IMG/VR virus record: IMGVR_UViG_3300037336_000025 | Span: 62,001-126,000 of that record | Reading direction: 5' to 3' (one strand) | From: a virus | DNA: 64,000 nt | In this document: positions 19,018 to 54,595 of the stretch, piece by piece | How the letters are laid out: each line of letters opens with the position of its first letter | Position numbering within the stretch: the stretch's first letter is position 1 | Position numbers and translations under genes: made by a program | The notes under the pieces: generated by a model | The model's database searches: none | What the model saw: the letters and a program-made list of their open reading frames with translations, nothing else | What the model was told of the DNA's origin: nothing

Positions 19018-19248
19018 ATGAGTACAGACAGTCATGATCGTATGATCCACGCTTTTCAGGAATACTTTAAGTATCAGGATCGCTTTGAACATCGAGGTTC
19101 AGATAGTGCTGGTGTTAGAGCACGATATTGGCTGAGTGAGATACGCAATGAGGCAAGTTTAAGGCGCACAGAAATACAGGCAAAAAGAGACGAACGTAAA
19201 GCAGCCAGGAAAGGCATGGTAGGAAGACCCCCTAAAATAAGTACTTGA
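19018..19248 (+). CDS. Small basic protein with AT-hook-like tail
   Basis: A 76-aa protein starting on the base after the gp46 stop, so it is translated with gp47/gp46. The first 45 residues are helical (HDRMIHAFQEYFKYQDRFEHR); the rest is strongly basic, ending in GRPPKIST. GRPPK resembles the core of an AT-hook, a minor-groove DNA-binding motif. Similar small genes follow gp46 in other marine T4-like phages, but I know of no assigned function. A role with the gp46/gp47 recombination complex is inference from position only. Confidence 0.7.
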   Translation: MSTDSHDRMIHAFQEYFKYQDRFEHRGSDSAGVRARYWLSEIRNEASLRRTEIQAKRDERKAARKGMVGRPPKIST

Positions 19249-19682
19249 TGACATGGTACTATAAGAAGAAAGAAATTACTGCAATCTCCGAAGATTATAT
19301 CGGTTTCGTATATCTTATTACCAATGTCATCTCTGGGCGCAAGTATATAGGCAAAAAACTAGCAAAGTTCGCAAAAACAACTTATAAAACAGTTACACTT
19401 AAGAACGGCACTAAGAAAAAAAAGAAAATTAGAGGCAAGATTGAAAGCGATTGGAAGGACTATTATGGTTCTAGCGATGCGCTTACAGCAGATATTAAGA
19501 CTTTAGGCAAAAATAACTTCACCAGAGAAATTCTATTTTACTGCAAAAACAAATCAGAATGCAGCTACATCGAGGCAAGAGAACAATTTAAACACAAAGT
19601 TCTAGAATCTACTGACTGGTACAACGGTCACATACAGGTTCGAGTTCACGGCTCACATATCCTCAAAAAACCCAAAATTTAA
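19248..19682 (+). CDS. GIY-YIG-type putative endonuclease
   Basis: A 144-aa protein. The ATG at 19248 overlaps the previous TGA (TGATG), better than the TTG one codon earlier. The N-terminus carries the family signature GFVYLITN...(R)KYIGKK, and a YIEAREQF segment near residue 107 supplies the Glu usually needed for metal binding. A very basic insert (LKNGTKKKKKIRGKIESDW) separates the two. GIY-YIG nucleases cut DNA in homing, repair or host-DNA breakdown; this small stand-alone form lacks the DNA-binding repeats (NUMOD) of typical homing enzymes. It is the last gene of the gp47-gp46 run, directly upstream of the structured-RNA interval. Confidence 0.75.
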   Translation: MTWYYKKKEITAISEDYIGFVYLITNVISGRKYIGKKLAKFAKTTYKTVTLKNGTKKKKKIRGKIESDWKDYYGSSDALTADIKTLGKNNFTREILFYCKNKSECSYIEAREQFKHKVLESTDWYNGHIQVRVHGSHILKKPKI

Positions 19683-20836: not shown

Positions 20837-20852
20837 TATATACAGCCAACAA

Positions 20853-20878
20853 AAAGCCTGCTTTAAGCAGGCTTTTTT
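20853..20878. terminator. Bidirectional intrinsic terminator
   Basis: Stem AAGCCTGC/GCAGGCTT with loop TTTAA (20854-20874), then TTTT on the plus strand and a matching U-run (from AAAAA at 20851-20855) on the minus strand. It separates the convergent 20279 gene and the gp26-like operon, and can stop transcripts from both. Confidence 0.88.
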
Positions 20879-20882
20879 ATGA

Positions 20883-21113
20883 TTAAAAGAAAGGTAAGTT
20901 AGTTTTCTTTGTAGTCTCTAAGTTTTCTTTAATAATCTCAGCAACAATTTCTCTTTCATCATGACTTAGATTCATGCCTTCACTATAAGAAAGACCTCTC
21001 ATGTACCAACACATTTTGAGAACGTCTTTCTTGATTCCCTTAACCTCAGACTCCATCCGTTTGGCTATCTGTAAAATCTCCGGCAAAGGGCTGTTTAAGA
21101 TTTTACTGCGAAA
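20883..21113 (-). CDS. -1 frame extension of the gp26-like gene (tail-assembly chaperone second domain candidate)
   Basis: This frame encodes 76 residues after the slip site and continues from the gp26-like gene without a stop. It contains KDVLKMCWYMRGLSYSEGM and SHDEREIVAEIIKE and ends TNLPFF. Read independently it has no credible start: a TTG at 21086 has no SD sequence and the first ATG (21056) gives only 57 aa. With the slippery sequence and stem-loop at 21071-21119 it is best read as the tail of a 359-aa fusion (283 + 76 residues). In marine relatives a similar small gene after gp26 is, as far as I recall, labelled gp51 (hub assembly); I cannot confirm homology to T4 gp51 (249 aa). Confidence 0.7.
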   Translation of the reverse strand, partial: FRSKILNSPLPEILQIAKRMESEVKGIKKDVLKMCWYMRGLSYSEGMNLSHDEREIVAEIIKENLETTKKTNLPFF

Positions 21114-21119
21114 AAATTT
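21071..21119 (-). promoter_or_regulatory. Programmed -1 ribosomal frameshift signal
   Basis: Read on the minus strand in the gp26-like frame, codons TCA AAT TTT TTC contain A_AAT_TTT and also T_TTT_TTC, both of the X_XXY_YYZ slippery type (21110-21119). Six bases after A_AAT_TTT a perfect 9-bp stem begins, GTAAAATCT (21106-21098) with AGATTTTAC (21079-21071), with an 18-nt loop that contains the 0-frame TAA (21097-21095). Slippage by -1 leads straight into the 20883 frame. Confidence 0.75.
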
Positions 21120-21961
21120 GATTGGTCCATTGTCACAGGTAGTAAGAACTCCTTATGACAGTCTCCGCATTGGACATCTTTTGCTTTAAACTCTATAGTA
21201 TCTTTAATTTTAGTAATGTGTGTTTGGATAGCTTCAAATACATCTTTAGATGAATTATTAATAAAGTCTTTGATCTGAACTTTATCGTCAGTGGATCCGT
21301 CTGGAGTTTCAATATGTGTAATGCAATCTGCAATAATATCAACTGTGAGTTCAGTTAGTCTAACAAAACTTTCACCAAACTTTTCTAACTTTAGTTCATC
21401 GCTGATTTCTTCATTATTGATAATACTAAAAATCTTCTGTTGCTCTAGTGTTTTAATTGATGCTTTTGTAACTTCTTTATAGTTGTAAGGTCTCACATGC
21501 ACGTTTAGCGGCCCAGCTTCTACAATTGAATTGTAAGTAAATTGGCTAAAGATACCAATCCAGTCTGACAGGTTGATATCGTAGGTATTTTCTTCTTTGC
21601 AATGTGGACAGTCTACTCTAACTTCCATGTTTTCGCCGTAGGTAGCGATGCGGATAGCAATGAGTGCAAAGTCTAGATCAATACTGGGCATTGCCCAGGG
21701 ATCTAAAATAGCAGGAATACAACTTTTAATAACTTCAACTGTACTTTGCCCGCTTAACAGTGCATCAGGAGTTTTAAACATTAACTCGTCTTTGGCAGTC
21801 ATTGAGTATACAGGATATTCTTCGTTTGCACTAACGTCTAATGCACCTGGGGGATAGAATCGACCTTGACTAGGCAATCTCACATAGATTTTAGGCTGTC
21901 TATACCAATTAGCCAAAGGATTTAATTTTGGCGTTTGCGGTATATTTACATTTTGATTCAT
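21095..21961 (-). CDS. 26: gp26-like T4 baseplate/tail-assembly protein, zinc-binding
   Basis: A 288-aa protein. I chose the ATG at 21961 (MNQNVNIPQTPKL) because GGAG stands 8 nt before it; the longer frame to 22045 would cross the late promoter and the start of the divergent gene. The segment YPVYSMTAKDELMFKTPDALL and the following STVEVIKSCIPAI are typical of the T4_baseplate family that includes gp26. Two CxxC pairs (C118/C121 and C265/C268) probably bind one zinc. In T4 gp26 is counted among hub-assembly factors. Here the end of the gene carries a frameshift signal and the divergent neighbour is the tape-measure candidate, so I suspect a chaperone role in tail assembly. Confidence 0.72.
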   Translation of the reverse strand: MNQNVNIPQTPKLNPLANWYRQPKIYVRLPSQGRFYPPGALDVSANEEYPVYSMTAKDELMFKTPDALLSGQSTVEVIKSCIPAILDPWAMPSIDLDFALIAIRIATYGENMEVRVDCPHCKEENTYDINLSDWIGIFSQFTYNSIVEAGPLNVHVRPYNYKEVTKASIKTLEQQKIFSIINNEEISDELKLEKFGESFVRLTELTVDIIADCITHIETPDGSTDDKVQIKDFINNSSKDVFEAIQTHITKIKDTIEFKAKDVQCGDCHKEFLLPVTMDQSNFFAVKS

Positions 21962-22029: not shown

Positions 22030-24528
22030 ATGGCATCAGTAACAATTGATATACCAGGCATAGGAAATGTAGAAGCTAAGAATGCAGCGTCTGAAGCCAC
22101 CTTACGAGAGTTAGTCAGTGCTATTAAGGGAATGAAAGGTGGAAAAGGTAATAAAGACGACGAAAAGAATCAGAGAGATCGAAATAAAAATCAGAAAGAA
22201 GATAACGGTAACCGGAAAGCTAGCACTGATCATTTTAAAAGACTAACAGTTGGTATCAGTAGCGTTGTTGGAGGGTTCTTTACTCTAGGTAATAAACTAA
22301 CCAGCACTGTTAGCCAGTTCGCTCAGTTAGATGGTTCAATTACAGATGCAGCTGATATATTTAAACAGTTACCAATTGTGGGCGGCCTAGTAGGTGGAGC
22401 ATTTGGAGCAGTTGCTGGCGCAGCTGATAGAGTTACTAAATCATTTGTAAATGCCGCAGGCGGCGGAGCAAGTTTCGGTGGAAGCATGGCTAGTTTCTCT
22501 GCATCAGCATCTCAAGCTGGCATGAACATGGCAGAATTTGGATCATTAATTAAAAATAACGGCGCTGGCTTGATGGCCTTTGGTACAACTACCGAAGATG
22601 GTGCTAAAAACTTTGCACAAGTTTCAAAATCAGTACGGTCAACTAGTTCAGAGTTATATGCACTAGGTATGAGTAGTCAAGAAATTAATGGCGGTCTTAT
22701 TCGATATGGTGCGTTATTAAGAAGTCAAGGGTTGTCTGGCGGTAAGACTAATGCTCAACTAGCACAAGGTGCAAGGACATATCTAAAAGAGATGGACGGC
22801 CTTGCAAAGATTACCGGCGAAGAACGTTCTGCTAAAGAAGCACAAGCAGCAACACTGGCTAAAGATGCACAGTTCCAAGCAGCAATGGCTGGACAAAACG
22901 AAGAAGTACAAAAGTCTTTTAGAAATACTGTTCTCGGATTGCCAGAACCGTTGCAGAACTTTACCAAAGATATGTTGGCCAACGGTACAGCAACTACTGA
23001 AGAGAATCAAAAGTTGTTAGCGCAATTGCCTCAGTCGGCGGCTATGTTAACTACTATGCAACAGAAGATGCAGCGTGGTGAAGCGGTTACTGATGCAGAA
23101 CGTAACGCTCTTAACAATAAAATGAAGGAAGAGGGTGCAAAGAATCTAAAAAATATTAAAAGTGCAGCAGCAGCCGATGCTAGTCTTGCAGGAACCACTA
23201 ATGCACTGGCAGCCACTTACCAAATTGCCACAGACGGTGTGAAGAAAGCAGGGGAACAACAGGGCGAAGCTGCAAAGAACACTGACAAGATGAATGAGAA
23301 GATGCAAAAGTTTCAGCAAAGTCTTGCAGAAATTGGAAACGCTTTTTCAATGGCATTAGCTGGAAGTGGTATGCTTGATGTATTAATGGGAGCATTTAAA
23401 ATTGTTGCCGATCTAGTAACAACTTATGTGTTACCTGCCTTTATGATTTTTAGCGATATTATTACACAAGTTGGTATGTATCTTGTAACAAATTTAAAAC
23501 CAATATTTGAAAGTATTGGAAACTTTATTAGAGATAGCCTGTACCCAGCTTTCCTAACTTTGGCAGCATTTGTGTTGGTAGATATTGTTCCAGTACTGCA
23601 AACAATGGCCACAGTAATATCCGAATATGTTACTCCGGTGTTATCTGTTATAGGTCAAGTATTTCAATCAGTTGCATCTTTCATTGCTGATAATTTTATG
23701 CCTATAATGTACGGTCTAGGTGCAGGGCTTGCAACATTAACTACTTTATATCTAATTAAAAACGGAGTATTACTAGCTGCAATTGTTGCGCAAAGCGCAT
23801 TAACTTTAGCAATGGCACTATTAACTAGTCCGATATTCTTACTTATTGCAGGCGTTGTTACATTAGTTGCTATTTTTAAATCATTATATGATAGTGGTTA
23901 CACATTTAGCTCTGCACTTGACATGATTGTTGACAATATTTTAAATTTAATAAACAAGATTACGTTTGGCTCAACAGGAATTAGTGACGATGAGCTCAAA
24001 TCTAGAAATGATAAACGAGATCTAGAAAAAGAAAAGATAGCAGCTGAGCGCGATGTTGATAGCAATAAAACTGCCAGAGCAGAAAAAGCTGCTGAAATTG
24101 ATAAAAAATTAATTACTTTAAAAGACAAACACGTTAAGAAATTAGGTGTTGAAAACGATAAAACAGAAGCAGCACAATCAAAGACTAATTTTAATACAAG
24201 CAACAGTTTAGATTTGTTAAAATCCGAAGTAGCAATTGCCGGAGGTCCAAAATCAGGCGGTATGGCCACAGCTGAAACCGGAAAGAGAGATATTGAAACT
24301 AAAAAAGAAGCTGAAGTTAAAGCCAAAGCAGACGAAGAAGAGATGAAGAAATCAGGAGGTGCCGCTACTGCTACTGCACCTACTCAAGAATCAGCAGAAT
24401 CATTACTTGCTAGCTTAAATACTAAGTTGGAGCAGTTAATAAAAGTAAATATGAACATGAAAGATGTTCAAGATAGACAGCTTACAGTGCAGCAAGGATT
24501 GAGCGGTGACTTATTTGCCAGCGTCTAA
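22030..24528 (+). CDS. Probable tail tape-measure protein
   Basis: An 832-aa protein with the usual tape-measure composition: Ala/Gly/Lys-rich helices with a hydrophobic middle. Residues 30-70 are highly charged (Lys/Asp/Asn/Arg-rich). Residues 110-340 are Ala/Gly/Ser-rich helical stretches, and residues about 430-650 hold several long hydrophobic segments (TLYLIKNGVLLAAIVAQSAL, then FLLIAGVVTLVAIF), as in tape measures that enter the host membrane. Residues 655-790 are predicted coiled coil (Glu/Lys/Ala-rich). Length suits a myovirus tail a little longer than T4 (gp29, 590 aa). It stands next to the gp26-like gene and before gp20. I do not recognise it as gp29 by sequence. Confidence 0.65.
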   Translation: MASVTIDIPGIGNVEAKNAASEATLRELVSAIKGMKGGKGNKDDEKNQRDRNKNQKEDNGNRKASTDHFKRLTVGISSVVGGFFTLGNKLTSTVSQFAQLDGSITDAADIFKQLPIVGGLVGGAFGAVAGAADRVTKSFVNAAGGGASFGGSMASFSASASQAGMNMAEFGSLIKNNGAGLMAFGTTTEDGAKNFAQVSKSVRSTSSELYALGMSSQEINGGLIRYGALLRSQGLSGGKTNAQLAQGARTYLKEMDGLAKITGEERSAKEAQAATLAKDAQFQAAMAGQNEEVQKSFRNTVLGLPEPLQNFTKDMLANGTATTEENQKLLAQLPQSAAMLTTMQQKMQRGEAVTDAERNALNNKMKEEGAKNLKNIKSAAAADASLAGTTNALAATYQIATDGVKKAGEQQGEAAKNTDKMNEKMQKFQQSLAEIGNAFSMALAGSGMLDVLMGAFKIVADLVTTYVLPAFMIFSDIITQVGMYLVTNLKPIFESIGNFIRDSLYPAFLTLAAFVLVDIVPVLQTMATVISEYVTPVLSVIGQVFQSVASFIADNFMPIMYGLGAGLATLTTLYLIKNGVLLAAIVAQSALTLAMALLTSPIFLLIAGVVTLVAIFKSLYDSGYTFSSALDMIVDNILNLINKITFGSTGISDDELKSRNDKRDLEKEKIAAERDVDSNKTARAEKAAEIDKKLITLKDKHVKKLGVENDKTEAAQSKTNFNTSNSLDLLKSEVAIAGGPKSGGMATAETGKRDIETKKEAEVKAKADEEEMKKSGGAATATAPTQESAESLLASLNTKLEQLIKVNMNMKDVQDRQLTVQQGLSGDLFASV

Positions 24529-24543
24529 TAATAGGATAATATA

Positions 24544-26247
24544 ATGAGTTGGAAAAAATACTTCACCCCAGTAGACACATCGAATCAATCAGGATCAATG
24601 AGTCCATTGGGCGGCCAAGGGCGGCCCGGGCCAGCTCGTACTAATTACTCAAGCTACTTGCCAGATGTATACGCAGGTAGTCCGAACCGTATTGAAAAGT
24701 ATATTCAATACGACACAATGGATATGGACAGTGAAGTTAACGCTGCATTAGATATCCTTGCTGAATTTTGTACACAGCGCGATAAAGAAAACGAAACACC
24801 GTTTAGTACACACTTCCGCGGCAAGCCAACTAGCACTGAAGTTAAACTAATTAAAGACAGCCTGCAGAAGTGGGTCAAGCAACAACAATTTGAAACACGT
24901 ATATTCCGCATTGTGCGTAATGCATTCAAATACGGCGACTGTTTCTTTGTACGTGATCCTGAAACTAAAAAATGGCTATTTGTTGATGCTGCTAAAGTAA
25001 GCAAAATTATTGTAAACGAAAGCGAAGGTAAAGTTCCTGAGCAGTATGTTATTAAAGATATGAACTTCAACTTTGCAAATCTAGTTGCAGTTACTCCACA
25101 CGGAACATCTAACACTAGCCCTAGCGGTACAAGCTCTTACACCACAGGTGGCGGATTTGGACGCGGTATGGTTGGTGATATGGGACAGTCTCCTGGTACA
25201 CGTTTTCAAAATGCTTCAAACGAATTTTGCGTTGATGCAAAAGATGTTGTGCATATTTCATTAAGTGAAGGACTAGATAGAAACTATCCTTTCGGCAATA
25301 GCTTGCTAGAATCAGTATTCAAAGTTTACAAGCAAAAAGAATTGCTGGAAGATGCAATTATTATCTATCGTATTCAACGTGCGCCTGAACGTAGGATTTT
25401 CTATGTTGACGTGGGTAATATGCCAGCACACATGGCCATGAGCTTTGTTGAACGTGTTAAAAACGAAATACAGCAGCGCCGCATTCCTAGTGCTAGTGGC
25501 GGCGGTTCAAACATTGTTGACTCAAGTTATAATCCATTAAGCACTAACGAAGATTATTTCTTTCCGCAGACAGCAGAAGGTCGCGGATCAAAAGTAGAAA
25601 CGTTACCAGGCGGTACTAACCTAGGTGAAATTACTGACTTACGCTTCTTTACTAACAAGTTATTCCGTGCGTTGAGAATTCCCAGTGCTTACTTGCCAAC
25701 AGGTGTTGAAGAATCAAGTAACTCAGTTGCCGATGGCAAAGTTGGCACAGCATACATTCAAGAACTACGATTTAACAAGTACTGCGAACGGTTGCAGGCA
25801 ATGGTTGTCGAAACATTCGACTTAGAATTTAAGTTATGGATGCAGCACCAAGGCATCAATATTGATTCAAGTTTGTTTGACTTAAGATTTAATCCTCCGC
25901 AAAACTTTGCTGCTTACCGTCAAGCAGAACTTGATACTACTCGTGTTGGAGTGTTTGCGCAGGTGCAAGAAATTCCACATATGAGCAAACGTTTTGCTAT
26001 GAAACGATATCTTGGTCTTACTCAGGAAGAGATTGTAGAAAACGAAACATTATGGCGCGAAGAAAACGGCAACAAGCTAAAAGCATCTACAGATGCAGCA
26101 AGCGAGATGCGATCAGCAGGTATTACTCCAAGCGGTATGTCAGCTGATTTAGGCGGCCAAGATGAAACAGCTCCTGATGATATGGCAGCAGCAGCCGAAG
26201 CAGGCGCAGCAGCCCAGGCACCTGCAGAAGAACCTCCAGCAGTATAA
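24544..26247 (+). CDS. 20: Portal vertex protein gp20
   Basis: A 567-aa portal protein (T4 gp20, 524 aa), which forms the dodecameric gate for DNA packaging and starts prohead assembly. Marine gp20 hallmarks are easy to see: LPDVYAGSPNRIEKYIQYD, EVNAALDILAEFCTQ, NAFKYGDCFFVRD, the RIQRAPERRIFYVDVG-NMP segment, and the highly conserved NEDYFFPQ...GRGSKVETLPGG region used for PCR surveys of T4-like phages. The C-terminus is Ala/Glu/Pro-rich, acidic and disordered. ATG start 15 nt after the tape-measure stop, with AGGA upstream; it opens the head operon and has no late box of its own. Confidence 0.96.
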   Translation: MSWKKYFTPVDTSNQSGSMSPLGGQGRPGPARTNYSSYLPDVYAGSPNRIEKYIQYDTMDMDSEVNAALDILAEFCTQRDKENETPFSTHFRGKPTSTEVKLIKDSLQKWVKQQQFETRIFRIVRNAFKYGDCFFVRDPETKKWLFVDAAKVSKIIVNESEGKVPEQYVIKDMNFNFANLVAVTPHGTSNTSPSGTSSYTTGGGFGRGMVGDMGQSPGTRFQNASNEFCVDAKDVVHISLSEGLDRNYPFGNSLLESVFKVYKQKELLEDAIIIYRIQRAPERRIFYVDVGNMPAHMAMSFVERVKNEIQQRRIPSASGGGSNIVDSSYNPLSTNEDYFFPQTAEGRGSKVETLPGGTNLGEITDLRFFTNKLFRALRIPSAYLPTGVEESSNSVADGKVGTAYIQELRFNKYCERLQAMVVETFDLEFKLWMQHQGINIDSSLFDLRFNPPQNFAAYRQAELDTTRVGVFAQVQEIPHMSKRFAMKRYLGLTQEEIVENETLWREENGNKLKASTDAASEMRSAGITPSGMSADLGGQDETAPDDMAAAAEAGAAAQAPAEEPPAV

Positions 26248-36821: not shown

Positions 36822-39800
36822 ATGGCAGAATTTAAGATCAGTAGATTACGATATACCTGGAAAGGAACATGGGTTCTTTCAACTGAGTATAATAGAGATG
36901 ATGTAGTACAATACGGTGGTTATTCTTGGGTATGTTTTAGACAACATACTGCCGGGGCATTTGCTGCTGACCAAACATTTTTAGCAAATCCTAACGATAC
37001 AGATCCAACACCAGCATGGCGCAAAATGACCGACGGTTATGCGTGGCGTTCAGCTTGGACAGGATCTACGTTATATAACCCCGGCGACATCGTATTAAAC
37101 GGTGGTAACTTATATCTGTGTGCAGTTAGCTATACCTCAACTAGTATATTTGATGACGATATTAGTAATTGGATTGTGTACACTGAGGGTTCAGCATTTA
37201 AATCAGATTGGATTGATAGTACACGGTATGGTGCAGGCGATGTTGTAAAATACAATGGTATTGTGTATCGTGCTATTACTGGACATACTGCAAGCTCAAT
37301 TAGCGACGGATTAGAAGCAGATCAAGAAAAGTGGGAACTTGTTTACGACGGCGTAGAATATGTAGGACAGTGGGCAAATGGCACTCGATATCGTAAAAAT
37401 GATCTAACAACATTTGGTGGAACATTATTCCGTTGTAAGAAAGGACATACTGCTGGCAGCGACTCAACTTTAAACTTTAATCAAGAAGAAAATTGGGAAA
37501 TTGAATTTCCAGGATTTCAGTTTAGTAACGAGTGGAACACTACTACGGTATATCAAGTCGGTGACTTGGTTAAACATGGTGGGTACTTATTTTATAGTTT
37601 AACTAATAATTACGGTAGCAATCCAAGTAACAGCATCTATCAATTAGAAGATAGAGTTGATGCAATAGATTGGCAAATTGCAGCTAAGAATATTAATTTT
37701 AGAGGCGACTGGAGCGTTACTGGATTATATAAAACAGGCGACCTAGTCCGCCGAGGCGGAAACACTTATAGTGCATTACTAGATACAACAGCCGACGGCA
37801 GTAGTCTAGATTATCTAGACGATACAAACTGGGAACTTATTACTGTTGGCCAAAACTGGCGTAATTTTTGGGCTGACGGCAATCGCTATTCTCCTAACGA
37901 TCTAGTAATTTTTCTAGGAAGCACATATAAATCGATAACTGAGCATGTGTCAACGGATCAGAATTATCCTGGAGATAACGGCTCAGGATATTTCTACTGG
38001 GAGTTAGTACTATTAGCTGGTTCTGAATCAGGTCTTAGACTTCGAGGAGATTTATTAACTTATGATCTTAGTCGTGGCGCAGCAGGCGACGGCAGTACAT
38101 TTGGCGCAGCAGCAGTTAATATTGGAACTCCTGGACAGGTAGTTGCTATTAACAATACAGATAGTGTTATCTATAAAACCTTCGGACAAGCTAACAGAGT
38201 TGTTTACGTAAATATCAATGGCACTGATGATACCTCTGATCCACAACAAGGAAACAGTCAATTTAAACCATGGCGCACAATTAGATTTGCCTGTGATCAA
38301 CTAGACGACGGATTTGCCGGAACATCTACAGTAAAAGTTGGCGCTGGCACATACGATGAAATTTTGCCAATAAGTGTCCCTGCAAGAACAGTGGTGTTAG
38401 GCTCAGAGTTAAGAACTACTGTGATAAATGCCGCTGGACCGATTGCATCATTGGCATTAGATAGTGCTTACACTATTGCAGCGTTAACTAGAATTTCACA
38501 AGTAATTGAAGGAGTAATTGGAGGTACAGAATTAATACCGCCAAAAACTGTTGGAAATTTAAAAGATCAAGTAATATTAACTGAAACAGTTTCAGAAACA
38601 GTTATAGATGAGTATGGTATTTCTATAACATCAACTTCTACAGGGGTGGTAGTAGCTGATCAACAAGCCGCAACTGATATTCAACTATTAATTTTAGATA
38701 TTAAAAATTATATTAATTTTTATGTTAATTCAACTGGAATTGATCCGATATTAGTCGGTAGTAACGTTGCGATTACATCAGCTGGATACGTAAATGCTGT
38801 GCGTATTCTCGAAGCTAACAGACAGTTCATAATTGCTGAAGCTGTTGCATTTATTGAATTTACTCACCCAGACTACAATTTTGATAGCGAGCTAGTTAAA
38901 GCAGACTTAAGTAGATACGTTGATGCATGGAAGTATGACATTATCTATACTGGTAATTATAAATCAAAATTAGCAGCAAGATGCTATCGTAATTCGGTAT
39001 TAGGCTCAGCAACTGAAGATATGTTTTACTGCCGCGATACTACTGGAGTTAGAAACTGTACATTAACAGGGTTAGCTGGAGTCTTAAATCCGTTAGGAGT
39101 GGCTGATATTTTTAGAGTGCCCACTGCTGGAGCATATATATCATTAGATCCAGGCTGGGGTCCAGCTGATAATCGTACTTGGATTATTAATCGTTCTCCT
39201 TATATTCAAGGAGTTACTACATTTGGTACTGGATGTACTGGGCAAAAGATCGACGGTAACTTACATAATGGCGGAAATAGATCTATTGTATCTAACGACT
39301 TTACACAAGTAATCAGTGATGGTATTGGTGCATGGGTTACGAATAATGGTAGAGCAGAGCTTGTATCTGTTTTCTCGTATTATGCACACATTGGCTACTT
39401 AACTCAAAACGGCGGAATTATTCGTGCAACTAACGGTAACAGTTCATACGGTACGTTTGGAGCCATTGCATCTGGAGTTGACCTAACAGAAGTACCTGTA
39501 GCAGCAGCAGTTGGTACTAGAGCCAACGAGGCAATTATATCATCGGCGTTTGCCGGCGACTTCGTTGATGAGATTCAAATATTTGAGTGGACTAATGCTG
39601 GACAAGATTATACACAAGCAACTGCTACCTTTGTAGGAGCTGGAGTAGACGCTGAAGTATTATTTGAAGAATTTAGAGATGACGCAGTGTTTGAAGCACG
39701 TCGTTTAGATGTCAGTGAGACTATCACACAGGATATCGGCGGCGGCGGCTACATCATTGTTCAGAACAACGCACAAACAGGAAACGCAACAACTATCACT

Positions 39801-42401
39801 CTAGCAACTAATGATCCAAACGCACAATCTAATTATCTAGGCATGAGAATTGTGTTAACTAGCGGACCAGGTACTGGACAATATGGTTACGTAACAGCTT
39901 ACAATAATACAAGTAAAGTTCTCACAGTTTATAGAGAAAGTGACGATCAGCCCGGCTGGGATCATGTTGTTCCGGGAAAGCCAGCAACTATACCGTTAAC
40001 TACTGGAACTACATATCGAATAGAGCCAAGAATTATCTTTGCAGCTCCTCAGTACATTGCTGCTGAAGTTACTACTCCTGTTAGTACTACTTGGACTGAT
40101 ATTGCCTACGGTGAAACTACTGAAACATATACAGAGTTAACAGCCGGTACAGGCACTGGCGGTGTCGATGGTAGTGATGGCCTAGTAGTAACTGCCGCAA
40201 CTTTTACTATTACTAAAATTGGAAGAGATTACACTGTTGATATTGCAACGGCAGGTTCAGGGTACCTTGTTGGCGACCAGTTAATAATTACTGGAGAAAA
40301 AATCGGCGGAGAAACTCCATTAAACGATTTGTTACTTGTAGTAACTTCTACTAGTGATGACAGCACTAACTCAATTTTAGCTATTGATCAGAGAACATTC
40401 GGAGCAGGAAACGGCATCGAAGCATCAAGCGGTAAATTTGTTGTTATCTCGTCAGGCGGAACAGCAGGCCTTTATAGCGGCGACGGAGACACATGGGAAT
40501 CATTTACTTTACCTACTGCGGGAGACTGGAAATGTACAGCCGCAGGCGATAACAAATTTGTAGCCATCCGTACAGGAAGTAATGCCGCAGCTAGTTCATT
40601 GGACGGAATAACATGGACTGCTAGAACGATGCCAGCAAGTAGGCTTTGGAACTCAGTTGTTTACGGTAACGGTATATTTGTTGCAGTTGCTGGTGATTTA
40701 GATGCAGGAGCTATTAGTACTAACGGAACTACTTGGACATCAACTAATTTACCAGAATTTGGCGACTCAAGTTTTAGCGAATGGGTTGACATAGCCTACG
40801 GCGCAAGAAAATTTGTAGCATTGTCAAATAGTGGAAACTATGTTGGAATTGGAGTATATAACAGTGAAGACGGTATTATTACATGGACTCCTCGCACAAT
40901 GGATGTTATTGCTGACTCATCTAACAAGTCTTGGCAAAGTATTGCATATGGCAATAATAGATTTGTGGCAATATCATCTACTGGTGACGTCGGATACAGC
41001 TTTGATGGAGTAGAATGGTATCCAGGAACGATGCCAAGTCAGGACGGATCAACTTCACACAATTGGAAGAAAATTAGATACGCCCAAGGCGTATTCTTTG
41101 CTATTGGCGATACTGGAGCACGATTAGTCGGCGCTGATGCTACTGCAGGACCTACAACTTTCGCAGCAACATCATTCGACGGCATAGTTTGGACTAACAG
41201 AGAATTAGCATCAGAGCAATCATGGGAAGCAGTTGGCTTTGGAAATCCTTACATTGCGTCAAGAGACTCGTCTATAGGAAAACGTTCACCAATGTGGGTA
41301 GTAGTTCCTGCGGCTACTGATAAATTTAACAAAGTGTTAACAGGAGCTAGAGCGTTAGGAAGAGCAACTGTTGTAGCAGGTAAAATATCAGAGATTAGAT
41401 TATGGGATCCGGGATCAGGCTATCTTGATGGTCCTGCGATTACGCTAATTGATCCAAATAATACATCTGATGTGCTACTTGAAAGTAGAGTCGGAGACGG
41501 AGTATTACCTAATCCAACATGGATTAACCGAGGGTTGGGATATCGTACTAATTCTACTAAAATTACAATAGCTGGAAATGGATTCGCTGACCTTATTCCG
41601 TCCGGTAAATTTATTGTTATAAACGAGTTGGAAAATTATCCAGGACCTGGCGCACAGCTAACTATTGCTGGTCTCGAGGGTATTTTCACATTAGTTGCAA
41701 TTACACCAATTGGGCAAACTGATCAAGGACTTGCTGCAAGGATTCGAATTAGTCCGGAAATTACAGTTAGAGATAACCTACAACACAAGACTCAGGTATC
41801 CATTAGATCACGATATAGCCAATGTCGAATTACTGGACACGACTTTTTAGACGTCGGAACTGGCAATTTTCAAGAAACTAATTACCCACTATTATATTCA
41901 GGATTTTATACACCTTCTCCAGAAAACGAAATTGTTGAAATAGGCGGTGGCCGCGTATTCTATACAAGTACTGATCAATCAGGTAATTTTAGAACAGGCG
42001 AATTATTTGCTGTAGAACAGGCAACTGGTACTGTTACAATTAGTGCAGACTTCTTTGACTTTAGCGGATTGACAGAATTGACCTTGGGTGGTATTAGAGT
42101 AGGAGGTACTGGAGCAGTAGTTAGGGAATTTTCAACAGATCCGTTATTTACTGCAGATTCTAATAATGTAGTTCCTACACAACGAGCAATTCGTGCGTAC
42201 TTGGCAGGAAGATTAAGTATTGGTGGATCAGAAATTGCAGTGGGAAGTTTTATTGCAGGTACAGTACTAGTAGGTCCAGATAAAATGGGAAATACTGCTG
42301 GGTCAAAAATAATCTTTCCTAAACTCGCAAAATTTGAAGGCGAGTTTGCAGGCGTCAGCGGCAGTATACTAGCACAAACTATGTTTTATAAATCATTCTA
42401 A
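36822..42401 (+). CDS. Giant modular fibre protein 1 (carbohydrate-binding-like repeats, beta-helix, beta-propeller)
   Basis: An 1859-aa protein. Residues about 8-400 contain seven tandem ~57-residue modules with the pattern W-x(4)-(T)-x-Y-x(2)-(G/N)D-(I/V/L)-V-x(2)-G-x-x-Y-x-C (for example TEYNRDDVVQYGGYSWVC), resembling type 5/12 carbohydrate-binding modules. Residues about 460-900 are beta-helix-like (VYVNINGTDDTSDPQ; FKPWRTIRFAC), with a block shared with the next giant (LDPGWGPADNRTWIINRSPY). Residues about 1200-1490 carry BNR/kelch-like units (W-x(2)-(I/V)-x-YG-x(2)-x-F-V-A) of a likely beta-propeller. The end (STDQSGNFRTGELFAVEQ, DPLFTADSNNVVPTQRAIRAY) is a shared trimerisation-type end block. 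Probably a host-recognising or glycan-binding fibre. Confidence 0.75.
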   Translation: MAEFKISRLRYTWKGTWVLSTEYNRDDVVQYGGYSWVCFRQHTAGAFAADQTFLANPNDTDPTPAWRKMTDGYAWRSAWTGSTLYNPGDIVLNGGNLYLCAVSYTSTSIFDDDISNWIVYTEGSAFKSDWIDSTRYGAGDVVKYNGIVYRAITGHTASSISDGLEADQEKWELVYDGVEYVGQWANGTRYRKNDLTTFGGTLFRCKKGHTAGSDSTLNFNQEENWEIEFPGFQFSNEWNTTTVYQVGDLVKHGGYLFYSLTNNYGSNPSNSIYQLEDRVDAIDWQIAAKNINFRGDWSVTGLYKTGDLVRRGGNTYSALLDTTADGSSLDYLDDTNWELITVGQNWRNFWADGNRYSPNDLVIFLGSTYKSITEHVSTDQNYPGDNGSGYFYWELVLLAGSESGLRLRGDLLTYDLSRGAAGDGSTFGAAAVNIGTPGQVVAINNTDSVIYKTFGQANRVVYVNINGTDDTSDPQQGNSQFKPWRTIRFACDQLDDGFAGTSTVKVGAGTYDEILPISVPARTVVLGSELRTTVINAAGPIASLALDSAYTIAALTRISQVIEGVIGGTELIPPKTVGNLKDQVILTETVSETVIDEYGISITSTSTGVVVADQQAATDIQLLILDIKNYINFYVNSTGIDPILVGSNVAITSAGYVNAVRILEANRQFIIAEAVAFIEFTHPDYNFDSELVKADLSRYVDAWKYDIIYTGNYKSKLAARCYRNSVLGSATEDMFYCRDTTGVRNCTLTGLAGVLNPLGVADIFRVPTAGAYISLDPGWGPADNRTWIINRSPYIQGVTTFGTGCTGQKIDGNLHNGGNRSIVSNDFTQVISDGIGAWVTNNGRAELVSVFSYYAHIGYLTQNGGIIRATNGNSSYGTFGAIASGVDLTEVPVAAAVGTRANEAIISSAFAGDFVDEIQIFEWTNAGQDYTQATATFVGAGVDAEVLFEEFRDDAVFEARRLDVSETITQDIGGGGYIIVQNNAQTGNATTITLATNDPNAQSNYLGMRIVLTSGPGTGQYGYVTAYNNTSKVLTVYRESDDQPGWDHVVPGKPATIPLTTGTTYRIEPRIIFAAPQYIAAEVTTPVSTTWTDIAYGETTETYTELTAGTGTGGVDGSDGLVVTAATFTITKIGRDYTVDIATAGSGYLVGDQLIITGEKIGGETPLNDLLLVVTSTSDDSTNSILAIDQRTFGAGNGIEASSGKFVVISSGGTAGLYSGDGDTWESFTLPTAGDWKCTAAGDNKFVAIRTGSNAAASSLDGITWTARTMPASRLWNSVVYGNGIFVAVAGDLDAGAISTNGTTWTSTNLPEFGDSSFSEWVDIAYGARKFVALSNSGNYVGIGVYNSEDGIITWTPRTMDVIADSSNKSWQSIAYGNNRFVAISSTGDVGYSFDGVEWYPGTMPSQDGSTSHNWKKIRYAQGVFFAIGDTGARLVGADATAGPTTFAATSFDGIVWTNRELASEQSWEAVGFGNPYIASRDSSIGKRSPMWVVVPAATDKFNKVLTGARALGRATVVAGKISEIRLWDPGSGYLDGPAITLIDPNNTSDVLLESRVGDGVLPNPTWINRGLGYRTNSTKITIAGNGFADLIPSGKFIVINELENYPGPGAQLTIAGLEGIFTLVAITPIGQTDQGLAARIRISPEITVRDNLQHKTQVSIRSRYSQCRITGHDFLDVGTGNFQETNYPLLYSGFYTPSPENEIVEIGGGRVFYTSTDQSGNFRTGELFAVEQATGTVTISADFFDFSGLTELTLGGIRVGGTGAVVREFSTDPLFTADSNNVVPTQRAIRAYLAGRLSIGGSEIAVGSFIAGTVLVGPDKMGNTAGSKIIFPKLAKFEGEFAGVSGSILAQTMFYKSF

Positions 42402-42421
42402 ACAATAGTAATAACAGATAC

Positions 42422-42428
42422 ATAAATA
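42422..42428 (+). promoter_or_regulatory. Late promoter (ATAAATA) for giant protein 2
   Basis: ATAAATA lies 18 nt before the ATG at 42447, with ACGGAGTAG between as ribosome site. Confidence 0.6.
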
Positions 42429-42446
42429 TAAGATACGGAGTAGAAA

Positions 42447-45400
42447 ATGGCAGAATTTAAATTAGGTAGAATTAGATTTGTATGGAAAGATGTATGGATC
42501 ACCGGTACAACATATTATGTTGACGATGTAGTTAGAAACGGCGGCAAAACCTATATTTGTACTGTAGGACACACAGCCGCTGCCGACTTCTATACCAATC
42601 TTGATTACAATCCAACAAAATGGAATCAAATGACAGACGGTCAAGAATGGAAAAGTGACTGGACTGTAGGTACATTTTATAAAGATAACGATGTTGTAAA
42701 ATACGGAGCTCTTTTATATATCTGTACAAATTCTCACACATCGGCTGCTACCTTAGCACTAGGGCTTGAAGCTAATTTGCCAGGCAATTGGGATGTATTT
42801 GCTGAAGGTACCGAGTGGAAAAACACCTGGACAATTAGTACTCGATACAAAATCGGCGATCTAGTTAGAACCGGCGCATACACATATGTTTGTAAGACCG
42901 GACATACTTCAGCAGCTACTGAACTATTAGGATTAGAAGCCAACGCCGCAAATTGGGACGAGTTTAACGCCGGATTAGAATATAAAGGCGCATGGAGTGG
43001 AAGCTCAGTACTTTACAAACTTAACGATATTGTTAAACAAGGTGCAGGATTATGGATTTGTGTAGATAAACACACTTCTACTACTAACTTCATTACTGAT
43101 AGTTCCGCGTACTGGAGTCAGTTTGTTGAGGGTGTACAATTTGAAGATAATTGGAACAGTTCAACAGTCTACCAGATAGGTGATATTGTACGTTACGGCG
43201 GCAATCAATATATTGCAATAACTAACCATTTCAATGCAACGCCTAGTACAAGTACTGCTATCTGGTCATTATTTAGTGAAGGCATTACGTTCGAATCAGA
43301 ATGGAGTAGTGCAACTGCCTATCGTGTCGGTAATGTAATTAGCCAACGCGGATACACATATATTGCCACCGCAGACAGTACAAATCAAGAACCGCCAAAC
43401 TTAACATACTGGCAAAAACTTAATTCTGGTATTTCATGGCAAGCCGAGTGGGTAGATGATGTTATATACAAATTGGGAGATGCAGTCCGTTACGGATCAA
43501 ATGCTTATATCTGTGTATTGGGTCATAAATCTGAAGCAGACGATGGATCAACTATTGGCAATGATCCACAAGGCGGCGGCAATGTAAACAGCCGTCCAGA
43601 CCAAGATATTAGTGGTACGTACTGGAATCTGTTATCTATCGGTACAGAAGTATCTGTATTAACTACTCGTGGCGATTTAGTGTACTTTGGCGGAGCAGGC
43701 CCAACTAGGTTACCAATTGGTACTGAAGGACAAGTTTTACGTGCAGGAGCAGACGATCCAGAATGGGTGTCATTAGGTGCTGCTGACCAAGTGTATTATG
43801 TTGCACCACATGGTTCCGACGCACCAAGTCCAGTACAAGGCAAAACTTTAGATAAGCCGTTTAAAACAATCCGATACGCATGTGAGCAAGTTGAAAACGG
43901 ACCACGTAACCCTAGCGCACAACGACTATTAGAACTGAACCGCGTGTTTATTCAACGTGAAGTTACTAGCTGGATTGACTATCAAGTTGCAAATGCAACT
44001 TCTGGCAGCATTTGGGAAAACTTTGTATACGAAGATGCCAAGTGCGCAAGAGATACTGGGTTCGTTGTTGACAGACTACAGTGGGATATTGGGCATGGAG
44101 GCAATTTAAAGATTAGAGCAGCAGCTCAATCTTTGCTAGGACTTTTAGTCGATGGACCATTTTCAGTAGCCGAAGAAGATGCACCATATTCTACATTATC
44201 GTCAGAAACAGCTCAAGGAATCGCAGCATATAATTATCTGCTAGTGGTTGTTGCAGCAGTGTTAGCTAACCAAGCACCTGCAGTTGCATATCAAAATGTA
44301 ACAGATGATTCTACAGCAATTGCTGGACAATTTATTGATATTACATTAGTTGCAGAAGCAGGAGTACTAACAACTATTACTTTACTAGTGGCCATTATTA
44401 CCGATGCACTAGCTAATCCTACACAAGTTGGACCGTTACCTACAATTCCTGCAAGATACGTACCGTTCACATTAATTAATGTAGCAACTGGGCAGTATCG
44501 TGAAACATTGCCAATTATTGTACCAGCAAACACTTGTATACAAGGTGACGAACTACGTTCTACTAATGCTGGTCCAGCAGGCAGCTTAGTTGATATTTCA
44601 GATAGCTACTACAGCCTTAGCTCTCTGGCACACATTAGTGGATTTATTGGCAATATTGTTACAGGCAGCACAGTCACACCGACAACCGGAAACATTGTAG
44701 CACAAAGCGCAAATTGGCCATTCGCTGATGTAGCAGAAAATGTTGCCGTTACTCAATTAGTTGACGTAATTAAGTTGCAAAGTGATTATCGCTTAGGCAC
44801 ATTGCATACTACAAATCTTATAGATCCTGTGGGCTACAATGCCGGCTATCTAGCAGGATATGGTAATGCTAGAAAATTAATTAAAGAAAACAAAAAGTTC
44901 TTGCAAGAAGAAGTAATTACGTATCTTAAAAATTCATACAGTTCTCTAGCATTTACTGGATCAATTGCTGGAAATGTGTTAACTGTTACTTCAGTTGAAA
45001 GTGGCGTGGTTACTAATGATGCATTAATTCACGGTCGAAGTGTAATTCAAGGCACACGTATCGATAAACAACTTTCAGGCGCTACTGGTGAAATTGGTAC
45101 ATACGAAGTAAGTAAGTTTCAAACAGTGACATCTACTATAATTAAAGCTGATACAAAATATAGTAGAACTGCTAATCGAAGAGATACTGGGTATGCAATT
45201 GATGCCGTGATATATGACTTAACTTACGGCGGAAACTCTCAAAGTGTTACTGCTGGTCTAGCATATTTTGATGGCGACAGTGCTGACAGTACTATTGCTA
45301 AATCAATACTTTCTGCATCATTTAAACCAGCAACACTTGCCGGACTTGCATTTTTAAAAACTAGAATGCAGGCAGTTGCACTCGGTAGCGCATTTACTCC

Positions 45401-48400
45401 ACTACAGACTGTGATTACACCGTATACTGATACAGTAGGCAGTGCAGAATCGTCAACACTTATTGGTAATAGTTTAGATGCAATTATTGAAATTATCGAT
45501 ACTGGTCCTGGCGCAGTTGGATCTACCGTAACATTATCTGACCCAGCTACTACTGACGGAGTAAGCTCTACTACTGCATTAATTGGTGCATATAGTGCAT
45601 TGAATTCAGCAGCAGCAACTATTAGAGCAAATACAATCTCCTATATTAATGCACAATATCCGGCATTAACATACGATAGTGCAAAGTGTTCAAGAGATAT
45701 TGGTATTATTCTAAAAGCTGTTGGCTACGATTTTATGCTTGGTAATGTTGCAGCTAATAATGTGTCTACTAACTTTAAATCAATTATTGCAGCACAGTCT
45801 TATTTGAGAGATAACGCTGCTGAAGTATATACTTTAGGACAAAAGGCAGTTACTATAGAAGCAATTGAGTATGCTCGAACACAGGCTATTGCTAATGTGA
45901 GTAGTGATGCAACTGCGATTGCACGTATAAACATATTGATGCCTTTGATTACTACGATTATCTACAGCGGATCAAATGAAGGAAATGTTTGTTCAACAGA
46001 ATTACGTAACAGAGATTATGCAATCTTACAACTTGAACTTAACCGATCATTTATTGTAGCAGAAGTTAATGCATATATTGCTAATACCTTTAGTGATACT
46101 GCTACCGCTGTGACTACTAACGTAATTACAATTAGCGATACTAGCTGGTTAAAAAGAAACGCTGAGATTGTATTCAGTGGCACAACATTTGGCGGGATTA
46201 CCGTAGGTACTAGGTATTATGTTCAAAGTGTAGTTAGCTCAACTACCTTTACAGTATCCACAACACGTTATGGAACTGCTGCATTATTTACTGACGATAC
46301 AGGGTCAATGGCTGTTAATTTAGCTTACAACACAGAGTCATGCGCACGAGATGTTGGTACATACATTGACGCACTAAAGTGGGATTTGAAATATACTTCT
46401 AACTATCAATCAAGATTTGCTTCACGTTATTATGCAAATGCAGTGCTTGGAAGTCTAGAAGAAGATATGTATTATCTACGTGATGGCACTGGATTACGAG
46501 ATCAGACATTAGTTGGACTAACAGGTGACATGTTAGCAGAAAATGAATTTGGCACTAGCCGCGTGTCAGCTGGAGCATATGCAAGTTTAGATCCAGGTTG
46601 GGGACCAAATGACTTCCGTACATGGATTATCAGCCGTTCACCGTATGTGCAAGGGTTAACTACATTTGGTAACGGAGCAGTAGGACAAAAAATTGACGGC
46701 GCATTGCATAATGGCGGTAACGATTCTATAGTATCTAATGACTTTACGCAGGTAATATCAGACGGTATCGGTGCCTGGATCACCAACAATGGTCGTGCAG
46801 AGTTAGTATCTGTGTTCTCATACTATGCACACATAGCATACCTAGCTGAAAACGGCGGACGAATCAGAGCTACTAATGGCAATAACTCTTATGGAGATTT
46901 TGGTTCTGTAGCAGAAGGATTCGACGATCGCGAAACACCAAACACTGCGGTAGTCGATAACGTATTGCAGTTTGTTGCAACAGTCGGTAATGTAACTACA
47001 ACTGGCGCACAGTTTATTGGTTTAGAGTTTAGTAATGCAGGTATAGACTACACTGATGCACAATTTGTACTAACGGGCGGCGGAATTAATGCTACTTCTG
47101 AAGCGGACGAGTTCCGAGACGATGCAGTTTACCAAGTTAGATTGGTGCAATTAGCAGAAGATGGGCTTAATGGCGAGTTTGGCGGCTCAGGATACCTAAC
47201 TAACTCCAACACAGCTCAAGCAGGATCTACTACGCAAATTACACTAGCTGCTACTGATAGTACAATTAGTACAGGATATATTGGAATGAAGGTAGTAATT
47301 ACTGGCGGAACAGGAGTAGGCCAGTTTGGTATCATCGATACATACAACACCGGTACCAAAATTGCCACAATAATTACCGAATCTACAGGCGCAGCAGGGT
47401 GGGAACATTTTGTAGCAGGAACTACTATTGCTTCTCCGGATGCAAGTACTACGTACACTGTTGAACCAAGATTAACGTTTACAGCACCATCATATGCTTC
47501 TGCGGCAGGAACAGGGCTTCCAACTGCTGGTACATACACTGATGTAAAATTTGCATCAGCAGTAACTACTTACCTCGGAGTTGCTGGCACAGGCGGCACA
47601 GGAACTGGCGCTACATTTAATGTTATCAAGAAAGGAACCAAGTACCTTGTAAGTATTGCCGCTGCCGGAACTGGATATGTTAGATTAAACACTCTAACAA
47701 TTGCAGGGACATCGCTAGGCGGTGTTAGCACAACCAATGATATCACTATCACTATCACAGCAATTACCAGCCTATCTGGTGCAGTACTTGCAGTTGACAC
47801 TACTGGTAGCGGAGTTGGCGGCAATTTTGTTGCATTGTTGTCAGGAAGTGCTACAGCTGAAACATCAATCGGCGGCACATGGACCTCAAGAACACTATCT
47901 GCTAGCAGAGATTGGATTGCCGCTGCATCTGGACAAGATATTACAGCTATCACCGCTGACAGTCTAGTAGCTGGAACAGCATATAAGATTACAGTATTAG
48001 GTAATTCGTTGTTCAATACAGTAGGAGCAGTAAACAACTTTGTTGGAACTACATTTATTGCCACAGGCGCTACTACAGGCACTGGAACAGTTGTAGCAGT
48101 TAATTCTATAATAGTTGCAATTGCAACTGGCTCTAACACAACTACACGCTCAGTCGATGGCGGAATTAATTGGACAGCCGGCGGAAACTTACCTGCAACT
48201 ACTACTTGGACTAGTATTGCCTACGGTGGCGGAGTATGGGTTGCAGTTGCTACGGGCGGAACTGCAAATGCATATAGCACAAACGGCGGACTAACATGGG
48301 TAGCCGGAGCAGTATTGCCTGCAAGCACTACTTGGACTAGCGTTACTTACGGTGCTGGAAAATTTGTTGCAGTAGCTTCAGGCGGAACTCAAGCAGCATA

Positions 48401-54572: not shown

Positions 54573-54595
54573 AATAAATGCTACAAGGAAAAATA

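Follow-up and report, generated by a model that had tools for sequence, protein, structure and literature searches.

The window, by which we mean the whole 64,000-nucleotide stretch analysed, is part of a 186,312-base virus record (IMGVR_UViG_3300037336_000025, positions 62,001 to 126,000) that may itself be a fragment. Its minus strand carries a gp26-like gene whose product we call TAC-N (Table 1). Near the end of this gene stand two overlapping heptamers of the slippery type, A_AAT_TTT and T_TTT_TTC, both in the register of the 0 frame, as the preliminary description of the locus had noted. The Phe pair encoded there is followed by four sense codons and then by the TAA stop, which opens the 18-nt loop of a 9-bp stem. 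The stem and the position of the TAA are as first described; the 6-nt spacer given for them holds from A_AAT_TTT, but from T_TTT_TTC the spacer is 3 nt, which is short. Beyond the stop the −1 frame runs on. Counted from the slip, a long product, TAC-NC, would comprise 284 residues of frame 0, ending in N-F-F, and 75 of frame −1. The total of 359 aa equals that of the fusion originally proposed, for which the split had been put at 283 + 76.

Table 1. Features of the chaperone locus, in window coordinates.
Feature	Position	Strand	Basis
TAC-N, 0-frame product, gp26-like, 288 aa, ATG at 21961	21098..21961	−	PF12322, phrog_150, AlphaFold2
0-frame stop TAA (21097-21095), first three bases of the hairpin loop	21095..21097	−	
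T_TTT_TTC, slippery heptamer, likely shift site, in 0-frame register from 21116	21110..21116	−	in register, kept in relatives
A_AAT_TTT, overlapping heptamer, possible secondary site, in 0-frame register from 21119	21113..21119	−	101/118 distinct sites among the matches listed
5' arm of the 9-bp stem (GTAAAATCT)	21098..21106	−	pairing and covariation
3' arm of the 9-bp stem (AGATTTTAC)	21071..21079	−	pairing and covariation
TAC-C, −1-frame extension, 75 codons past the slip	20886..21110	−	open frame, coding pattern, AlphaFold2
−1-frame stop codon	20883..20885	−	
Probable bidirectional terminator, an A/T-tailed inverted repeat that separates two convergent genes	20851..20877	.	by eye
832-aa divergent gene, probable tape measure protein	22030..24528	+	position, conservation, weak PHROG match

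The inverted repeat was read by eye and is absent from the output of the computed scan. Elsewhere in the window, a 145-aa ORF with a TTG start (19245-19682) looks by eye like GIY-YIG homing endonucleases. Two adjoining, very large tail fibre genes of 1859 and 2458 aa (36822-49823) both match phrog_9851, and downstream of them lies a gene for a Nol-like carbamoyltransferase (54578-56407; phrog_1601, E 1.1e-166).

Neighbouring genes

The 832-aa gene diverges from the gp26-like gene and is followed by a portal protein gene (24544-26247). A divergent ORF occupies the same place in 145 of the 149 loci with enough flanking sequence, nine further loci having too little. In four loci (L065, L067, L201 and L202), no divergent ORF of at least 250 aa starts just upstream of the chaperone gene. 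By blastp, proteins similar to the window's 832-aa protein occur in all 145 loci that have the divergent ORF and in three of six isolates. The protein contains hydrophobic stretches and matches the tape measure family phrog_3981 at an E of only 0.01. The RaK2 record carries a tape measure note, and the RaK2 protein is not matched by the 832-aa protein in blastp. Given the proximity to the portal gene, the length, the conservation, the hydrophobic stretches, the weak PHROG match and the RaK2 note, the 832-aa protein is probably the tape measure protein.

Conservation of the likely slip site

Relatives were taken from IMG/VR (the best 80 of 360 matches) and from a wider scan (the best 80 of 596), which overlaps the first set; repeats were removed in distinct counts, and L239 and L260, where the contig ends before frame 0 does, were excluded from the count of sites. 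T_TTT_TTC is in register in 80 of 80 loci of the first set (best 80 of 360) and at 118 of 118 distinct homologous sites from both scans (best 80 each of 360 and 596), counts that stand for non-independent events, since homologous sequences are related. A_AAT_TTT is kept at 101 of these 118 sites among the matches listed and changed at 17, where T_TTT_TTC remains. As the one heptamer varies while the other stays, T_TTT_TTC is the better supported shift site. It is also the only one that can work in locus L074, in which a −1-frame TAG directly precedes it. On these two grounds we rejected A_AAT_TTT as the main site.

Codon usage at the site points the same way. All 66 distinct genes from the best 80 of 360 spell Phe-Phe as T_TTT_TTC at the site; elsewhere in the same loci, 45 of 435 Phe-Phe pairs are spelled that way. 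In the same genes, synonymous codon identity over the block QSNFFAVKS is 0.87, versus 0.45 expected and 0.40-0.65 in the other 32 nine-column blocks listed. The preliminary description had proposed that relatives should keep the heptamer while third positions elsewhere vary, and had named loss of the slippery run as a ground for refutation; in this clade the run is kept. The high codon identity of the block is partly due to double coding. Ahead of the Phe pair, the codons for Ser/Ala and for Asn are nearly fixed as well (identity 0.95 and 1.00), and a −1 frame entered by a slip at T_TTT_TTC does not use them, only the last T of the Asn codon lying within the heptamer. Their remaining constancy would fit a role for A_AAT_TTT or for flanking bases. 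Taken across the relatives, the pattern indicates that the slip site is under selection.

A probable hairpin behind the likely slip site

In 54 distinct sequences, 91.2% of the 486 cells of the 9-bp stem hold standard pairs and 43 are broken; when the 3' arm is slid out of register by 1 to 3 bases, pairing drops to 26.5-56.6%. Cells with a double change number 30, versus a mean of 8.7 after shuffling, and none of 500 shuffles reached 30, a result whose meaning as a probability is limited by the kinship of the sequences. All 500 shuffles likewise fall below the observed covariation score and the observed share of paired cells. Two of the five covariation measures do not stand out: pairs changed on both sides number 4 (2.8 in shuffles, 77 of 500 as high) and further pair types number 9 (7.9 in shuffles, 114 of 500 as high), neither an excess. 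The pair at columns 18/45 is GC in 36 sequences, AU in 17 and GU in one. As each of its two bases is a third codon position in the −1 frame, their linkage is not accounted for by protein coding. In the wider set of 109 distinct site windows, 86.5% of cells pair, versus 26.4-53.4% in slid versions, and 13 of the 109 have fewer than five consecutive pairs.

Other measures say less. RNAalifold by itself predicts five of the nine pairs. The folding energy of the window's stem, at z −1.25 and matched by 22 of 200 shuffles, does not stand out, and we set it aside as evidence; support for the stem comes from covariation, not energy. Counting site windows with any 6-bp stem proved a poor test (92 of 109 at the site, 7-66 of 109 at six control offsets). 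The 9-bp stem is nonetheless most likely a real RNA structure, and the earlier expectation that homologues would keep it holds; the stem also shows compensatory changes. According to the title of PMC8861025, it is a specific length and structure, not high stability, that enables stem-loops to make translation pause. The literature on T4-like chaperone frameshifting that we searched, which takes in few of the subscription papers, yielded no account of a hairpin, weak evidence of absence.

Could RNA polymerase slip here instead of the ribosome, so that messages with one base more or fewer in the T6 run give the long protein? The run is T6 at all 118 sites among the matches listed and longer in the isolate genomes XacN1 and RAS14, and slippage of RNA polymerase on longer runs is known. 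Six bases are short for it, however, the run exceeds six at none of the 118 sites among the matches listed, and a covarying stem that begins 3 nt after the run is more in keeping with a site acting on the ribosome, making slippage during transcription very improbable.

The −1 frame as protein

Past T_TTT_TTC the −1 frame is open for 75 or 76 codons in all 77 complete loci of the first set (best 80 of 360, three of which have incomplete extensions). For codon-position counts we took the 59 distinct sequences that share the common length and set four longer ones aside. Divergence at the three codon positions of the −1 frame is 0.24, 0.14 and 0.49. This frame contains no stop in any of the 59, versus stops in both other frames in 59 of 59, and mean amino-acid identity of the extension is 0.72. 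Comparison of the relatives thus indicates that the −1 frame evolves as protein. AlphaFold2 predicts four helices for the extension, a confident helical domain with a mean pLDDT of 91.2.

No Pfam or PHROG family was matched in searches with the window's extension. Scattered matches of single extension members (best E 0.0078 and 0.022) look like chance and were discarded. A scan of genome contigs with a single extension sequence, which covers close relatives only, gave 184 pattern matches, none of them confirmed; a scan of viral contigs with the Vibrio phage protein gave seven, with no relative confirmed. PDB searches by sequence and by fold brought up no useful relative among the matches listed.

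We found no point in favour of the two frames being one gene broken by an assembly error or by decay. The arrangement is shared by 118 distinct sites among the matches listed and by isolate genomes, and both frames are under selection, which leaves that explanation a negligible chance.

The −1 frame had also been said to lack a usable start. Among 64 distinct extensions, the sole start codon present in every one is an ATG at codon 36, in the middle of the predicted domain, preceded by a Shine-Dalgarno-like (SD-like) stretch in one of the 64. The commonest earlier start, a non-ATG codon at codon 8, occurs in 34 of 64 and has an SD-like stretch in none, and a TTG at codon 12 is accompanied by one in six of 64. 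The claim largely stands for the window's clade, no early start with an SD being conserved in these 64 extensions; the second refuting observation named at the outset, a start codon and SD for the second gene in relatives, thus also came out in favour of the proposal there.

Relation to T4 gp26 and gp51

TAC-N matches PF12322, the T4 base plate family (E 2.2e-17, residues 63-284), and phrog_150, 'baseplate hub' (E 3.5e-22), and its AlphaFold2 model has a mean pLDDT of 81.7. A search of the 186-kb record, possibly a fragment, at E up to 1 gave no second PF12322 match besides TAC-N. We compared profiles built from 82 sequences of the 0-frame protein, five of gp26 and seven of gp51, leaving out Cygsa01. 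The probability is 98.1 for TAC-N against the gp26 family and 94.5 against the gp51 family, and 99.1 for gp26 against gp51; the gp26-like identity given to the 0-frame protein at the outset is upheld. A profile of the fused product matches the gp51 family at 97.2, with the alignment reaching into the extension. The extension itself matches the last 80 residues of gp51 at 90.9 over 33 columns and whole gp51 at 81.3. Its score against these C-terminal 80 residues is 36.3, versus 9.4 against the gp26 C-terminus, and is higher than in all 100 column shuffles, the best of which reached 15.1. PF12322 spans residues 1-206 of 208 in gp26 and 1-201 of 249 in T4 gp51.

In T4, then, gp26 resembles TAC-N and gp51 resembles the body plus the extension, and both are homologous to the window's two products. 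The difference is that genes 26 and 51 of T4 are two separate genes on opposite strands, whereas the window has one gene with a frameshift. In passages of a review of the T4 tail, gp26 and gp51 are listed as hub assembly chaperones, gp51 is needed yet absent from the particle, and genetic support is also given for gp26 as a hub part and not only a chaperone (PMC3004832).

TAC-N also matches phrog_1854, 'PmgB-like', at E 1.7e-4. In P1, the tape measure gene has pmgB immediately upstream, and the pmgB product was suggested to be a tape measure chaperone (PMC9024508); PmgB may be a distant relative of TAC-N. A viral fold search with the TAC-N model brought up long uncharacterised proteins of the Erwinia phages Special G and phiEaH2 and of the Ralstonia phages RP12 and RSF1 (E 7.2e-7 to 1.7e-3, TM-score by query 0.37-0.49), possible relatives going by the predicted fold.

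Isolates and cyanophage-type relatives

We chose 18 isolate genomes by hand, not at random, to span distant groups; they include one cyanophage and many jumbo phages. T_TTT_TTC is present in 15 of the 18 and T_TTT_TTT in two, XacN1 and RAS14. The −1 frame is open past the 0-frame stop in all 18 chosen genomes. The remaining one, Pseudomonas phage Cygsa01 (locus L089, 2072-2982), has neither heptamer and a TAATG at the junction, and is annotated as two genes; a switch from frameshifting to re-initiation is possible there. With Cygsa01 left out, the other 17 show differing best stems, three of them having no stem of at least 5 bp in the range searched, and a single stem common to all groups was rejected.

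Cyanophage-type relatives (the best 80 of 591, L107-L186) comprise 63 distinct loci. In 63 of these 63, T_TTT_TTC stands exactly 10 nt before the 0-frame stop, and in 63 of 63 a −1-frame ATG lies near that stop or up to 60 nt after it, at +5 in all 25 rows listed. In these loci a different, probable 9-bp stem begins 7 nt past T_TTT_TTC, at offsets 14-40 counted from where the heptamer starts, and contains the ATG just past the stop. In 39 distinct site windows, 90.3% of its cells pair, versus 22.8-48.1% when slid. Support for this stem is mostly conservation; one pair varies much (GU, UG and a few others).

So, is the −1 frame a small gene of its own, reached by re-initiation or from its own start, with the slippery run a mere side effect of the overlap? 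In the isolates Phosso, Atu_ph07 and 121Q the 0-frame stop overlaps with an ATG, the cyanophage-type ATG stands at or just after that stop throughout the 63 distinct loci from the best 80 of 591, and several records annotate the −1 frame as a gene. Re-initiation is thus possible in these groups and may take place besides or instead of frameshifting. Yet the cyanophage-type loci keep T_TTT_TTC in 63 of 63 (best 80 of 591) despite their ATG, which moreover sits inside the conserved stem, and the window's clade is without a conserved early start codon. Further, the residue read directly after the slip is Arg in 44 of 44 aligned extensions of the window's clade, and the 0-frame residue that overlaps it varies among Ala, Gly, Val and Asp. 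A downstream start would leave this Arg out, so its retention argues against one; it is not universal, PA5oct having Gln. Finally, T4 gp51 joins body and tail in one chain. A separate gene therefore seems unlikely to us, with a small remaining chance.

A probable frameshifted tail chaperone

We conclude, with a probability of roughly 0.92, that the locus encodes a chaperone pair of T4-like, contractile-tailed phages, TAC-N of 288 aa and TAC-NC of 359 aa, the latter presumably made by −1 frameshifting. Comparison among relatives supports the site, the open frame, the stem covariation, the coding of the −1 frame and the relation to T4 gp26 and gp51. What we infer is the occurrence and rate of the shift, its stimulation by the hairpin and the partners bound. 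Most ribosomes would end at the TAA and make gp26-like TAC-N; a fraction, slowed by the hairpin 3 nt on, would move back by one base on T_TTT_TTC with tRNA-Phe and translate 75 further codons, giving TAC-NC with its additional helical domain. If the two forms act as gpG and gpGT do in lambda, the part common to both should coat the tape measure protein, here probably the divergent 832-aa protein, and the additional domain should bring in tail tube subunits.

Lambda gpG/gpGT follows the same scheme, a −1 frameshift near the 3' end of one gene giving both a short and a long product, and the likeness drawn to it in the preliminary description is apt for the mechanism. Its heptamer is a different one, G_GGA_AAG, and in the window, unlike lambda, the presumed tape measure gene lies on the opposite strand and diverges from the chaperone gene. 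Lambda-type chaperone homologues were not among the matches listed, by sequence or by fold; a viral fold search with the extension reached a 'Tape measure chaperone' of Moogle at E 2.6 only. According to a 2016 review, the tape measure protein is bound by gpG and by the G part of gpGT, and the tail tube protein by the T part; the short and long forms stand at about 30 to 1, and such frameshifting is said to be widely conserved in long-tailed phages 'except T4' (PMC5009743).

The preliminary description knew of no such arrangement for gp26-like proteins of T4-like phages. Vladimirov, Gautam and Davidson (2022) reportedly found frameshifting kept in several T4-like groups, with genes 26 and 51 separate in T4. 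The arrangement is indeed in print, going by citations of that work in passages of two later papers: a 2025 study of phage Adele speaks of poly-T runs as known −1 signals in T4-like TAC-N genes (PMC12846349), and the PRFect paper says that in some T4-like phages a pair of genes, one short and one a longer fusion, takes the place of the frameshift (PMC10885494). For the TAC locus of Vandenendeviridae and Andersonviridae (Adele, Moogle), usually annotated as two genes, the former paper proposes a −1 frameshift at a conserved poly-T motif. That motif is given as GTTTTT, versus T_TTT_TTC here (PMC12846349). The class of frameshifted T4-like chaperones is thus already known, and the window's gene adds to it.

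Tentatively, and with more doubt than confidence, we suggest that the heptamer is nearly constant across T4-like phages while the hairpin is re-invented by lineage and sets the ratio of short to long form, its loss leading to re-initiation, as in Cygsa01, or to two genes, as in T4. On that suggestion, the hairpin of the window's clade would follow the site by 3 nt and hold the 0-frame stop in its loop, and that of the cyanophage-type clade would follow the site by 7 nt and bury a would-be start codon.

Implications for T4-like phages

Genes such as this one are annotated as 'baseplate hub subunit', without a partner or with a small unknown gene. The −1 frame is absent from the gene tables of PA5oct and RaK2 and is a separate hypothetical protein in other records. 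Such phage records deserve re-annotation, as environmental T4-like phages would carry a two-form tail chaperone in a gene that now bears the hub label. Frameshift, frameshift with a nearby ATG, and two genes form a natural series that may help to reveal how the ratio of the chaperone forms is fixed.
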